The notes under the pieces were generated by a model. It was not told the origin of the DNA. It searched no databases and saw nothing but the letters and a program-made list of their open reading frames with translations. This document shows positions 40,106 through 46,515 of a stretch of 64,000 bases of DNA, piece after piece. Location: NCBI GenBank assembly GCA_003160215.1, contig PLQW01000276.1, forward strand, positions 1 to 64,000, written 5' to 3'. Numbering within the stretch: position 1 is the first letter of the stretch; each line of letters opens with the position of its first letter. This DNA comes from Acidobacteriaceae bacterium. GTDB taxonomy: Bacteria > Acidobacteriota > Terriglobia > Terriglobales > Acidobacteriaceae. Position numbers and translations under genes: made by a program.

Positions 40106-40136
40106 GCCCCACCCAAGCCGCTTTTGCTTGGGTGGG
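40106..40136. terminator. Strong hairpin, terminator-like
   Basis: CCCCACCCAAGC-cgctttt-GCTTGGGTGGGG. Confidence 0.55.
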
Positions 40137-40180
40137 GATTTGTCTTGAAGACTCCAGCGCCAGCAGAGGAGAGACGTGTC

Positions 40181-40423
40181 ATGCCCGTTGAACAGCAGCA
40201 CAGCGCAACGCACCGATTTGCCGTTATCTTCGAGAAGGAAGACGAAGGAGGATACCACGTATTTTGTCCGACGTTACCCGGTTGCCACACCCAAAGCGAA
40301 ACGGTCGAGGAGGGCATTCTTCGTATTCGCGAGGCGATTCAACTTTACGTAGATAGTCTGATCGAAGATGGGCTCTCAATCCCACCGATGTCTCAGGAAA
40401 TGCGAATTGAAACTGACGGCTGA
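40181..40423 (+). CDS. HicB-like antitoxin-type protein (no HicA recognised nearby)
   Basis: HRFAVIFEKEDEGGYHVFCPTLPGCHTQSETVEEGILRIREAIQLYVDSL. Confidence 0.85.
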   Translation: MPVEQQHSATHRFAVIFEKEDEGGYHVFCPTLPGCHTQSETVEEGILRIREAIQLYVDSLIEDGLSIPPMSQEMRIETDG

Positions 40424-42080: not shown

Positions 42081-43451
42081 ATGGCAACCACCGACTACAG
42101 CCTGGAACGCGGACTTCCCGTCAGCATGGAGGCCGAGCGCTCGATCCTGGGCGCGATCCTACTGGACAACTCCCTCTACGATCAAGCCGCTGAAAATCTG
42201 ACGCCGGACGACTTCTCTCTGGACGCGCATCGCCGCGTTTATTCGCGCATGCGCGATCTGCAGGAGACCGGCCGTCCGGTGGACATGATCACGCTGGTCG
42301 AGGAGCTCGACCGCCGCAAAGAAGTGGAAGCGATCGGCGGCGTTGCGTACCTGTCGTCGCTGATCGATGGCGTGCCCGACCGGCCTTCGATCGAGCATTA
42401 CGTACGCATCGTGCGCAACAAGGCGCTGCTGCGCGGTCTCATCAACCTGGCGCAGAACGCCATCGCCGAAGCCATCGAGCACTCCGACGAGGCCGAGGAG
42501 GTGCTGGGACGCGCCGAGCAGGCCATCTTCCAGCTCTCGGAAAACCGCATTGGACAGGGGTTCATGAACATCCCGTCCATCATCAAAGGTTCGTTCGGCT
42601 CGCTGGAAGAGTTGTACGCGCGTGGCCAGGAAATTACCGGACTGGCGACGCACTACACGCAGCTCGACAAGCTGACCAGCGGGCTTCAGCCTTCGGATTT
42701 GATCATCATTGCCGCGCGTCCGTCGATGGGCAAGACCGCGCTGGCCATGAACATCGCCGAGAACGCGGCGGTGCTCGACGGCAAAGTGGTGGGCGTGTTC
42801 TCGCTGGAAATGTCACGCGAGGCGTTGCTGATGCGCATGTTGGCCTCGCACGCGCAAGTGGACTCCAAAGATTTGCGACAGGGCTTCCTCACCAAGGACG
42901 ACATGCGCAAGCTGACCCGCGCCACGGAACAACTCTCACATTCCAAGCTGTTCATCGACGATTCGCCGGGCATCTCCGTGAGCGAGATGCGCGCCAAGGC
43001 GCGCCGCTTGCGGCAGACGGAAGGTCTCGATTTGCTGATCGTAGATTACTTGCAGCTGATGTCGGCGGTGCCCATCGGCGGCAAGCGCTTCGAGAACCGG
43101 ACGCAGGAAGTCTCGGCCATCTCGCGGGGGCTGAAGGCGCTGGCCAAGGAGTTGAAGGTCCCGGTGGTCGCGCTGTCGCAGTTGAGCCGCGCCCCCGAGA
43201 GCCGGAGCGGCGATCATCGGCCGCAACTTTCCGATTTGCGCGAATCGGGCTCTATCGAGCAGGATGCCGATGTGGTCGCCTTCATCTTCCGCGAAGAGGT
43301 GTACAAGAAGGACGATCCCGACCTCGACGGCATCGCCGAACTCATCGTCGCCAAACAACGCAACGGTCCCACCGACATGATCAAGATGGCGTTCATCAAA
43401 CGGTACACGCGATTTGAAAACCTGGCGAAAGAGGGCGAGTTTAATCAGTGA
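42081..43451 (+). CDS. dnaB: Replicative DNA helicase DnaB
   Basis: PVSMEAERSILGAILLDNSLYD; ARPSMGKTALAMNIAENAA; LIVDYLQLMS; no intein seen. Confidence 0.97.
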   Translation: MATTDYSLERGLPVSMEAERSILGAILLDNSLYDQAAENLTPDDFSLDAHRRVYSRMRDLQETGRPVDMITLVEELDRRKEVEAIGGVAYLSSLIDGVPDRPSIEHYVRIVRNKALLRGLINLAQNAIAEAIEHSDEAEEVLGRAEQAIFQLSENRIGQGFMNIPSIIKGSFGSLEELYARGQEITGLATHYTQLDKLTSGLQPSDLIIIAARPSMGKTALAMNIAENAAVLDGKVVGVFSLEMSREALLMRMLASHAQVDSKDLRQGFLTKDDMRKLTRATEQLSHSKLFIDDSPGISVSEMRAKARRLRQTEGLDLLIVDYLQLMSAVPIGGKRFENRTQEVSAISRGLKALAKELKVPVVALSQLSRAPESRSGDHRPQLSDLRESGSIEQDADVVAFIFREEVYKKDDPDLDGIAELIVAKQRNGPTDMIKMAFIKRYTRFENLAKEGEFNQ

Positions 43452-43510
43452 ACCGCGAAATTTGGTCAGGAGTGAACATTACCAGTTGTAGCGGAACCGG
43501 GCTTGCCTGA

Positions 43511-44632
43511 ATGCTCGACATCTCAACGTTGACGAGTGCCGTAAAGGCAAAGGAGCGCACCGATCAATATGTGATCCTTGCGGCGTTGTTCGCCCTAGGG
43601 GCGCATGTCAAGTCTGTGACCGCGAAGCAGGTTACTGATTTGCTGAAGCTGCATTTGGGAGCAAAGGCCCCTGGTAATGTTAATGCTAGCCTACGTGCAT
43701 ACAAGACGTACGTGACCCCGACGGACAAAGGCCCACCTCTGCGCTGGTCCTTGACCGAAAAGGGTTTGGAACACCTTCGGTCTCTAAGTGGCCTTGCTCT
43801 GTCTACCGCCTCAGACGCGGAGAGCTTCAAGTCGGACGTAGGCATTATCTGCGCGCTTGAGTACCCAGAGCTCGCGGCTGTCCTGAAAGTGCTTGGTGGG
43901 GCAGGGGCTTGGACGGAAGTCGGCGATGCACGCCATACACACGTTTATCGTGAAATCACCATGGTAACTGCAAGCGGTGCAAAGCTGCGAGTGGTGGCTA
44001 CTGCCGCTACGTCCATGGGACTCACTGCGGCCGCCATCGCAACCACGCAACTCGTGCTCCAATTTCGCCCTCGACTTGTCGCCATGATTGGGATAGCCGC
44101 TGGAACACGCTCCGGCGGCAAGCAGTTCGGAGACGTACTGGTTGCGGACCCAAGCGTTGATTACAACTCTGGCAAGGTGGTTTTCGCAGATGGAATTCGC
44201 GAGTTCCAACCAGATCCATACCCGATTGGGCTCAATCCCCGACTTCGAAGTGTCCTGCAAAAGTATCGCGGCACGCACACATTATTTGCAGAGATCCGCA
44301 ACCGCTGGACTGGCGCCGTGCCCAGCGGAGCCAATCGCCTCCACGTAGGCCCTGTGGGCGCTGCCGATCAGGTTATTGACGACCCGACGCGTGTCCTTGA
44401 GATCCAGAAGAACTGGCGTAAGCTGATCGGCGTAGAGATGGAAACGTACGGGGTATACCGGGCGGTTCATGAGTCGCCTGAACCGAAACCCCGCGCCGCG
44501 TCTTTCAAAGCTGTTTGCGATTTCGCGGCAGAGAAGTCGGATTCCTGGCAGGAGTTCGCAGCCTTCATGGCGGCGGAGTTTGCAATCGAATTCTTGAGGC
44601 GCGAATGGGCCACACTGTGGCCAGTAAATTGA
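43511..44632 (+). CDS. Winged-helix-like domain fused to nucleoside phosphorylase (PNP_UDP-type) domain
   Basis: N-terminus VTAKQVTDLLKLHLGAKAPGNVNASLRAYK...WSLTEKGLEHLRSL; C-terminus DVGIICALEYPELAAVL, MIGIAAGTRSGGKQFGDVLVAD, IGVEMETYGVYRAV, AVCDFAAEKSDSWQEFAAFMAAEFAIEFL. Confidence 0.8.
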   Translation: MLDISTLTSAVKAKERTDQYVILAALFALGAHVKSVTAKQVTDLLKLHLGAKAPGNVNASLRAYKTYVTPTDKGPPLRWSLTEKGLEHLRSLSGLALSTASDAESFKSDVGIICALEYPELAAVLKVLGGAGAWTEVGDARHTHVYREITMVTASGAKLRVVATAATSMGLTAAAIATTQLVLQFRPRLVAMIGIAAGTRSGGKQFGDVLVADPSVDYNSGKVVFADGIREFQPDPYPIGLNPRLRSVLQKYRGTHTLFAEIRNRWTGAVPSGANRLHVGPVGAADQVIDDPTRVLEIQKNWRKLIGVEMETYGVYRAVHESPEPKPRAASFKAVCDFAAEKSDSWQEFAAFMAAEFAIEFLRREWATLWPVN

Positions 44633-44647
44633 TAGGTTGGAGGACTT

Positions 44648-45289
44648 ATGACAAAGCAGGATACTACGGTAGACGAGGAGATCGCCGCAATCAGCAATGT
44701 ATATGCCGCTCTAAAGGAACTCGAACCGGAGGCTCAAGCTCGAGTGTTGAAATACGTAGCCGAAAAGCTGAAAATTCGCGATTCAATGCTCGGCGACGAT
44801 GCGGCATCACGTCAAGAAAGATCCGAAGATACATCCAAGGATAGGAAGGACGAAGGCGCGACAGAACGCAGAGAGGACGCAAGCGAGGAACTCGAAGGAA
44901 TCAGCCCGATTGCCAAGAAATGGATGGCTCGGAACGGGCTCGAGCCAAAGAAACTTTCAACAATTTTTAGTCTCGGTGTTGACGAAATCGACTTGATTGC
45001 GAAAACTGTGCCTGGGAAAAATAAAAAAGATAAAATGCACAATGTTTTCCTGCTGAAGGGAGTGGCGGCCTACGTTGGAACCGGCGTCGCCCGTTTCACG
45101 CATGAGCAGGTAAAGGAAACTTGTTTGCACTATAATGCGTTCGACGCTAACAACTTCATCTACAACTTCAAGAGCCTAGCGGGAGAGTTGTCAGGGAGCA
45201 AGGACACGGGGTATACGCTGACCGCCCGCGGCCTCACGAGCGCTACTGAACTAGTAAAAAGCATGTCCCAGACGGATACTGGCGACTAA
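44648..45289 (+). CDS. Uncharacterised partner protein with C-terminal winged-helix-like domain
   Basis: Helical N-terminus IAAISNVYAALKELEPEAQARVLKYVAEKL, charged linker, C-terminal VFLLKGVAAYVGTGVARFTHEQVKETCLHYNAFDANNFIYNFKSL...YTLTARGLTSATELVKSM; starts 15 nt after the upstream stop. Confidence 0.75.
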   Translation: MTKQDTTVDEEIAAISNVYAALKELEPEAQARVLKYVAEKLKIRDSMLGDDAASRQERSEDTSKDRKDEGATERREDASEELEGISPIAKKWMARNGLEPKKLSTIFSLGVDEIDLIAKTVPGKNKKDKMHNVFLLKGVAAYVGTGVARFTHEQVKETCLHYNAFDANNFIYNFKSLAGELSGSKDTGYTLTARGLTSATELVKSMSQTDTGD

Positions 45290-45396
45290 AAAGCTCCTCC
45301 GCTCAACCCGCACTGAGCGCCATTCACCGCACAGACCCACATCTTCATTGGGTTAGGCGCGACTGCGCCTCGTTCGCTTCGGTATAGTTCTAGTAG

Positions 45397-46515
45397 ATGC
45401 GAGAACGTTACCGCCGCTGGATGCACGACTGGGAAGCGCGAATGACCACCCGCGACAACAATCGCGTGGTGAGGCCATTCGAATGGGGCCCTGAATGGGC
45501 GAGCCGCTGGCCCAGCTTGGAGAACTTCCCTCCGCCGCAGGACCAGAGCGACAAAGCCGCGATGCTGGCTTACTGGTCGGCAGCTAACGATCACATCGTC
45601 ACCAACAGCGATCAGTTTTACGCCTACAAGGTCCCATCGGATTTTCGGCTGGAAAAGCGCAAGGTCGAACTCTTCCACACCGGCAGCGACGCTCCCAGGA
45701 AGCAACCGAAGGACGAACTCGGCACCTACCTGCGCTTCACCTCGCCGGTGGAGTTGCCGTATCCCGAGAACAATTGCATGAACGCGCGCTGGTTTCCGGC
45801 GCGAGGGCGGCGAGCGGTGATAGTCATTCCACAGTGGAACGCCGACGGCGTTAGCCAAAACGCGCTGTGCCGCATTTTCAATTTGCTGGGCATCTCGGCG
45901 TTACGCATGAGCATGCCCTACCATGACATCCGCCGCCCGGCGGGGCTGACGCGCGCCGACTACGCGGTTTCCGCCAACATCGGGCGCACGATTGACGCCA
46001 CGCGGCAAGGCATCATCGACATTCGTTGCTGCCTCGACTGGCTGCAGCAGCGCGGCTACGCGCGGCTGGGCCTGGTGGGAACCAGCCTGGGCTCCTGTTA
46101 CGCATTTATCGCGGCTGCCCACGACGCGCGCGTCAGCGTCAATGTCTTCAACCATGCTTCGACGTCGTTCGGCGACGTGACCTGGACGGGACAATCGACC
46201 CGCCACATCCGGCAGGGAATCGAGAGCGTGCTGACCCAGGACGAGCTGCGCCAGGTCTGGCTGTCCATCAGTCCGATCGTGTACTTCGACAAGTTCGAGC
46301 GCTGGCCGAAAAAGTCGCTGATGATCTATGGCCGCTACGACCTGACGTTTCTGCCGGAATTCTCCGCGCAGGCGGCAGGCGAATTCCTGCGCCGCGGGCT
46401 CGACACCACCATCAAGGCGCTGCCGTGCGGACACTACTCCCTCGGCGAGAGCCCCTACAAGTACATGGACGCCTGGCACATTTCGCGCTTCCTCGCAAAA
46501 GCGTTTGCCGGGTAG
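45397..46515 (+). CDS. Alpha/beta hydrolase (ABHD18-like)
   Basis: RRAVIVIPQWNADGVSQNALCRIFNLLGISALRMSMPYHD...GLVGTSLGSCYAF...ALPCGHYSLGESPYKY. Confidence 0.82.
   Translation: MRERYRRWMHDWEARMTTRDNNRVVRPFEWGPEWASRWPSLENFPPPQDQSDKAAMLAYWSAANDHIVTNSDQFYAYKVPSDFRLEKRKVELFHTGSDAPRKQPKDELGTYLRFTSPVELPYPENNCMNARWFPARGRRAVIVIPQWNADGVSQNALCRIFNLLGISALRMSMPYHDIRRPAGLTRADYAVSANIGRTIDATRQGIIDIRCCLDWLQQRGYARLGLVGTSLGSCYAFIAAAHDARVSVNVFNHASTSFGDVTWTGQSTRHIRQGIESVLTQDELRQVWLSISPIVYFDKFERWPKKSLMIYGRYDLTFLPEFSAQAAGEFLRRGLDTTIKALPCGHYSLGESPYKYMDAWHISRFLAKAFAG

Follow-up and report, generated by a model that had tools for sequence, protein, structure and literature searches.

A two-gene winged-helix/nucleosidase cassette from an Acidobacteriaceae genome, apparently a so far undescribed form of an established anti-phage defense

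Results

A gene pair between dnaB and a hydrolase gene

The window analyzed here, a stretch of 64,000 nucleotides from an Acidobacteriaceae genome (contig PLQW01000276.1), contains two genes placed head to tail on the plus strand and flanked by dnaB (42081-43451) and an alpha/beta hydrolase gene (45397-46515; Table 1). An earlier note on this DNA, made from the letters alone, had described two open reading frames 15 nt apart between dnaB and an unrelated hydrolase; the coordinates are correct, the products have 373 aa and 213 aa, a GGAGG lies ahead of gene 2, and the neighbors are those named. The arrangement of gene 1 and gene 2, as read from the sequence, is operon-like; neither a promoter nor a terminator could be identified with significance at the cassette. 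Elsewhere in the window, a HicB-like antitoxin gene lies at 40124-40423 (PF15919, 2e-11). The flanking hydrolase scores 180.9 bits against a cut-off of 182 for the RcgR putative quorum-lactone hydrolase family and is present in 9 of 9 genomes of the genus searched.

Table 1. Features of the cassette in the window, and related loci in other genomes
Feature	Position	Strand	Basis
Gene 1, winged-helix + PNP-superfamily nucleosidase, 373 aa	43511..44632	+	Pfam, PADLOC, seven homologs
Gene 1 N-terminal winged-helix domain, residues 1-100 (predicted)	43511..43810	+	AF2
Gene 1 PNP domain, residues 106-373, DtcC-type	43826..44629	+	Alignment with DtcC, tree
ADPSVDYNSGK motif, common to gene 1 and DtcC (ADPxxDxxSGK)	44144..44176	+	Alignment
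VEMETYG motif of gene 1, PNP/MTAN catalytic-glutamate region	44432..44452	+	Homolog and DtcC alignment
KAVCDFAAEK motif of gene 1, containing D337	44507..44536	+	Homolog and DtcC alignment
Spacer between gene 1 and gene 2, 15 nt, ribosome-binding site GGAGG	44633..44647	+	Sequence
Gene 2, putative two-module adaptor/regulator, 213 aa	44648..45289	+	Seven homologs
Gene 2 N-terminal helical hairpin, residues 10-40 (predicted)	44675..44767	+	AF2 H10-23, H27-40, moderate confidence
Gene 2 acidic linker, residues 45-82	44780..44893	+	14% mean pairwise identity
Gene 2 middle three-helix block, residues 83-125 (predicted)	44894..45022	+	AF2 H87-95 H100-107 H114-120
Gene 2 C-terminal winged-helix domain, residues 126-211, basic (predicted)	45023..45280	+	AF2
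Inserted segment between dnaB and alpha/beta hydrolase gene	43455..45286	.	Same-genus nucleotide alignment, GC 0.545
Small winged-helix protein + about 250-aa RNxRGxGH protein	L033:5793-7059, L035:5642-7663, L036:3627-4930, L061:2856-4155		Two-/three-gene loci

The domain layout proposed in the earlier note is largely borne out. AF2 predicts a winged helix at the N-terminus of gene 1 (pLDDT about 77-92), and the nucleoside-phosphorylase/nucleosidase domain that follows is recognized by PNP_UDP_1 (residues 110-352, E 1.5e-14). For gene 2, the AF2 model and the net charge of the poorly conserved linker (-5 to -9 across homologs) agree with a helical N-terminus, a charged linker, and a C-terminal module, and the middle block is the best-conserved part of the protein (68% mean pairwise identity). 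Searches of Pfam, PADLOC, NCBIfam, and PHROGs gave no match for gene 2, Pfam contains no family for either winged-helix module, and no recognizable sensor domain was found in either gene.

Distribution and site of insertion

Homologs were sought in one genome per GTDB species, a scan that detects close relatives only, and gene 1 was found at seven other loci (two in Nitrospira, three in Acidobacteria/Terriglobia, and two in Bacteroidota) with 65-84% identity. Gene 2 lies directly 3' of gene 1 at all seven, across three phyla, with 50-64% identity, a linkage on which the earlier note had staked its proposal, and full-length matches to the gene 2 profile occur only alongside gene 1 in the samples of 396 and 297 genomes. 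The closest gene 1 homolog in the scan belongs to a different phylum (Nitrospira), as expected from horizontal transfer. None of the 40 relatives searched (eight other same-genus genomes and 32 more) carries gene 1, and in the 297-genome phylum sample the only full-length match comes from the window's own genome. This is not the distribution of a conserved housekeeping nucleosidase, the possibility that the earlier note had set against its own reading; the cassette is a rare two-gene unit that moves between unrelated bacteria. Neither phage records nor viral contigs yielded a relative of gene 1, nor did viral contigs or plasmids yield one of gene 2, so a phage origin of the cassette is unsupported.

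The distribution is patchy, and recognizable defense neighbors occur at one of the seven loci only. There, in Chryseosolibacter histidini (L007), a DUF4062 gene flanks the pair on one side and an AbiJ_NTD4 gene (PDC-S32 match, 1e-108) on the other; the Nitrospira and other Acidobacteria loci have ordinary neighbor genes.

Nucleotide alignments of same-genus genomes follow the window up to 43454 and resume at 45287-45289 or at 45374. The break from 43454 to 45287-45289 means that the segment without a counterpart is exactly the two genes, and its downstream boundary coincides with the stop codon of gene 2. The composition of the segment is foreign (GC3 of 0.61 for gene 1 and 0.57 for gene 2 vs. 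0.77-0.82 for the neighbors), in keeping with the earlier impression of a less GC-rich pair. No target-site duplication or direct repeat flanking the insert was found. At the same junction, genome G399 has a gene-free interval of about 116 bp, G400 a TPR gene, and G396 a SIR2/AbiH-like gene with a 189-aa gene (L087:1850-3502; AbiH 7.6e-5, under the Pfam cut-off; PADLOC SIR2 2.2e-8). The variability of the junction and the second defense-like gene in G396 suggest that it may be a small insertion hot spot. Separately, in another same-genus genome, G403 (L093:1452-4334), genes for a PIN-domain protein and a trypsin-like peptidase (the latter a weak match to PADLOC PDC-S45) lie 3' of dnaB.

The enzyme domain of gene 1

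Residues 102-364 of gene 1 match the PADLOC profile PDC-M60C best by far (9.6e-66, 220 bits, beginning at profile position 143), followed by the CBASS PNP effector model (4.9e-20), and the MTA/SAH nucleosidase equivalog model yields 1.4e-13 and 50.9 bits vs. a cut-off of 169. Plasmid relatives of gene 1 (about 30-35% identity over the matched stretches) lie in three-gene loci, in which a large protein of about 1100-1160 aa is encoded together with a small response regulator and a protein that joins a receiver to a PNP domain. In a scan of one of these loci, from Klebsiella, PDC-M60A, B, and C matched, in order, the large first gene, the response regulator, and the receiver-PNP gene, an arrangement that is the one of Detocs. 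The equation of PDC-M60 with Detocs is our own reading and not a statement of the library.

Alignment of gene 1 with DtcC from four Detocs-type loci revealed three common motifs (ADPxxDxxSGK, VEMExYG, and KxVCDFA). VEMETYG and CDFA are invariant in the eight homologs, while in DtcC the former is nearly invariant and the latter invariant; D337 in KAVCDFAAEK is presumably the catalytic aspartate, judging from what is known of MTAN/PNP enzymes. In a tree built without a distant MTAN-like row (a misleading long branch), gene 1 groups with DtcC at 98/98, apart from the other PNP fusions of the phylum, with some long branches. With only eight close sequences available, AF2 modeled the PNP half poorly, many residues having a pLDDT below 50, and the Foldseek matches of the gene 1 model to PNP enzymes (best 1.4e-3) therefore restate the Pfam result. 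Judged by profile, tree, and motifs, the PNP domain is of the defense-effector type and closest to Detocs DtcC, consistent with the immune-effector kind named in the earlier note. PNP effectors of CBASS, Detocs, pAgo, DRT8, and NLR-like systems degrade (d)ATP (PMC10952713, PMC11249213), and by analogy gene 1 would cleave ATP or dATP.

It is very improbable that gene 1 is instead a metabolic nucleosidase under regulation, acting on MTA/SAH or the like, whose partner resembles a transcription factor and which has no role in conflict. The PNP fold is common to housekeeping enzymes, but the DtcC-type match reaches 220 bits vs. 51 for MTAN, and the absence from close relatives, the foreign composition, and the exact insertion all argue against a metabolic role. 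Identity as a housekeeping nucleosidase was rejected on the MTAN score, which falls under the cut-off, and on the count of other same-genus genomes carrying gene 1 (0 of 8).

Two winged helices

From an alignment by eye, the earlier note had proposed that the N-terminus of gene 1 and the C-terminal module of gene 2 are one adaptor domain, shared for homotypic coupling. The folds are not unrelated, as both modules are predicted winged helices with an identical order of elements (helix, short strand, helix, helix, two-strand wing, long helix): H18-28 H38-52 H57-63 E68-70 E78-81 H83-93 in gene 1 and H126-145 H152-161 H167-175 E181-184 E188-191 H193-211 in gene 2 (pLDDT about 62-89). The similarity in sequence did not prove significant (p about 0.03-0.15 overall), whether by Smith-Waterman comparison against shuffles (p = 0.14) or between profiles (P = 0.11-0.15, and 0.032 with a deeper gene 2 profile, which was judged not significant), though the proposed register is plausible and the profile alignment falls in it. 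Of the shared-adaptor proposal, then, the common predicted topology stands and significant sequence similarity does not. Because winged helices are so widespread among proteins, the same topology is weak evidence of homology; with homology of the modules unproven, homotypic coupling is unproven as well.

Both modules are basic in all eight homologs (pI 9.5-9.9 in gene 1 and 8.8-9.3 in gene 2). Nucleic-acid binding accounts for this no less well than homotypic coupling does, and DNA sensing by the two winged helices is as plausible as such coupling. The best fold and profile neighbors (MarR, MntR, MUS81, F93, the pNOB8 centromere protein, and TubR at E 0.2) are DNA-binding winged helices, none of them significant, and the fold matches of the gene 2 C-terminal module are mostly winged-helix proteins, again none significant. 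Such observations favor a DNA-triggered sensor, in which both winged helices would bind phage DNA or a DNA structure, as DNA readers and not protein adaptors, and their co-assembly would activate the PNP domain. We nonetheless consider this account quite unlikely, given that some winged helices mediate protein contacts and that an autoregulatory repressor would be as good a reading of gene 2. The winged helix of gene 1 was not found with any other effector.

Relatives of gene 2

The C-terminal module of gene 2 recurs in small proteins that adjoin a 250-aa RNxRGxGH protein (L035, L036, and L061; Abi_C-like, under the cut-off) or a HEPN-like protein (L034 and L056). The N-terminal hairpin adjoins the same 250-aa family in L033 and is found, more weakly, beside a ParA-like ATPase and a RelA/SpoT synthetase in L037 and L038. 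The RNxRGxGH proteins of L033, L035, L036, and L061 have no PADLOC or NCBIfam family and a weak Abi_C hint in Pfam only. In L033, L035, and L036 this neighbor has a C-terminal winged helix of its own, which the gene 2-type profile matches with an hhalign probability of 83% and a pairwise E of 9e-6 (three sequences only), so that matching winged helices on effector and partner are better supported there than in the window. From the recurrence of its modules beside HEPN-like, Abi-like, and RelA/SpoT genes, gene 2 looks like a modular adaptor. The C-terminal module is not defense-specific, since most Bacteroidota copies are standalone: seven lie among housekeeping neighbors without an effector, which rules out that the gene 2 wing always marks defense.

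Two groups of these loci can be described further. The hairpin protein, the ParA/MinD-like ATPase, and the RelA/SpoT synthetase-domain protein form a three-gene locus in two genomes of the phylum (L037:3915-6190 and L038:4004-6268), possibly an alarmone-synthetase conflict system. The standalone chromosomal winged-helix proteins have long low-complexity charged linkers and are conserved in some Bacteroidota beside housekeeping genes, either a lysA-like gene (L053, L054, L055, and L058) or recJ-like and fbp-like genes (L057, L059, and L060).

The properties of gene 2 bear on whether the pair is a classical toxin-antitoxin module, in which gene 1 would be a constitutive ATP-depleting toxin, gene 2 a labile antitoxin that silences it, and phage defense secondary or absent. 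The tight linkage with a toxin-like enzyme first, the patchy distribution and exact two-gene mobility, and a small, fast-evolving partner with a disordered, acidic linker (14% identity) would all fit. We regard this as unlikely all the same, as gene 2 is large and multi-domain, with a middle helical block as its best-conserved part and not the form of a short neutralizing peptide, and the nearest relatives of the enzyme are regulated defense effectors.

Discussion

Comparison with known systems

Detocs provides the nearest comparison to the cassette. DtcC and gene 1 belong to the same PNP clade, have three motifs in common at about 30-35% identity, and are horizontally mobile effectors, but DtcC carries an N-terminal receiver where gene 1 has a predicted winged helix, and in place of the kinase DtcA and the response regulator DtcB the cassette has an unrelated 213-aa partner. 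Neither DtcA nor DtcB was found beside the pair in the window (dnaB and the alpha/beta hydrolase gene) or at the other loci read. Type I/III CBASS (Cap17) also employs a PNP-superfamily effector (PADLOC Effector, 4.9e-20), while the CBASS cyclase, the SLOG-type cyclic-nucleotide sensor domain, and adjacent Cap genes are all absent from the cassette, and no CD-NTase cyclase occurs in the two-gene insert or the adjacent genes. Without the sensor genes that define these systems, the cassette belongs to neither; membership in Detocs was rejected for want of a receiver, kinase, or response regulator, and in CBASS for want of a cyclase.

The idea of a small shared module that links an effector, PNP included, to a next-door partner, as proposed for the cassette, also underlies systems built on effector-associated domains (EADs), small adaptor domains to which Kaur et al. 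ascribe homotypic interaction (PMC7159879, PMC8195603). The modules of the cassette differ in being predicted winged helices without significant mutual similarity, and there is no NTPase hub. The HEPN/Abi-like loci (L033, L035, L036, and L061; L034 and L056) resemble the cassette in that a gene 2-type module adjoins a toxin-like gene, but the effector is Abi_C/HEPN-like and not PNP, without a family in the libraries searched. No description of the two-gene winged-helix/PNP layout was found in the libraries and open-access papers searched, a set that lacks the original Detocs publication (Rousset et al. 2023) and in which absence is not proof. The cassette seems to be a so far undescribed form of a familiar kind of anti-phage defense, in which an effector of established type is set in a two-gene winged-helix arrangement.

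A proposed mechanism

On balance, we favor, by a little, the explanation that the cassette is a horizontally mobile abortive-infection unit, with gene 1 as a DtcC-type effector and gene 2 as its dedicated controller. Gene 1 would lie dormant until switched on, with infection as the trigger, and once active would most likely cleave ATP or dATP to adenine and ribose triphosphate; the loss of ATP would then starve the infected cell. The winged-helix domain would replace the usual phospho-receiver on the effector, and gene 2 may bind gene 1, probably by way of their winged helices, perhaps while on DNA, and so license or restrain it by relaying or withholding the infection signal. The pairing at every locus, the rarity of the unit, the exact insertion, the foreign GC3, the DtcC-type PNP domain, and the winged-helix topology all count for this explanation, as do the defense genes around the Chryseosolibacter pair and the gene 2-type module beside Abi-like and HEPN-like genes. 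The ordinary neighbors in most loci, the non-significant homology of the winged helices, the lack of a sensor domain, and the standalone modules count against it. The toxin-antitoxin pair and the DNA-triggered sensor described above are its serious rivals.

A broader reading, which we hold only tentatively and incline against, is that gene 2 represents an undescribed family of modular winged-helix adaptors for different suicide effectors (the ATP nucleosidase in the window, and Abi/HEPN-like proteins and perhaps an alarmone synthetase elsewhere). The version in the window would re-wire a Detocs-type nucleosidase in two genes, exchanging two-component signaling for DNA- or adaptor-triggered winged-helix control of the enzyme.

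Should the abortive-infection explanation be correct, a minimal two-gene layout would join the ATP-cleaving PNP effector systems (CBASS, Detocs, pAgo, DRT8, and NLR-like), and a PNP effector could be driven without a kinase, cyclase, or NTPase. It would also point to a reusable winged-helix controller common to several effectors, and this controller would offer a direct route to further uncharacterized defense loci in soil bacteria.
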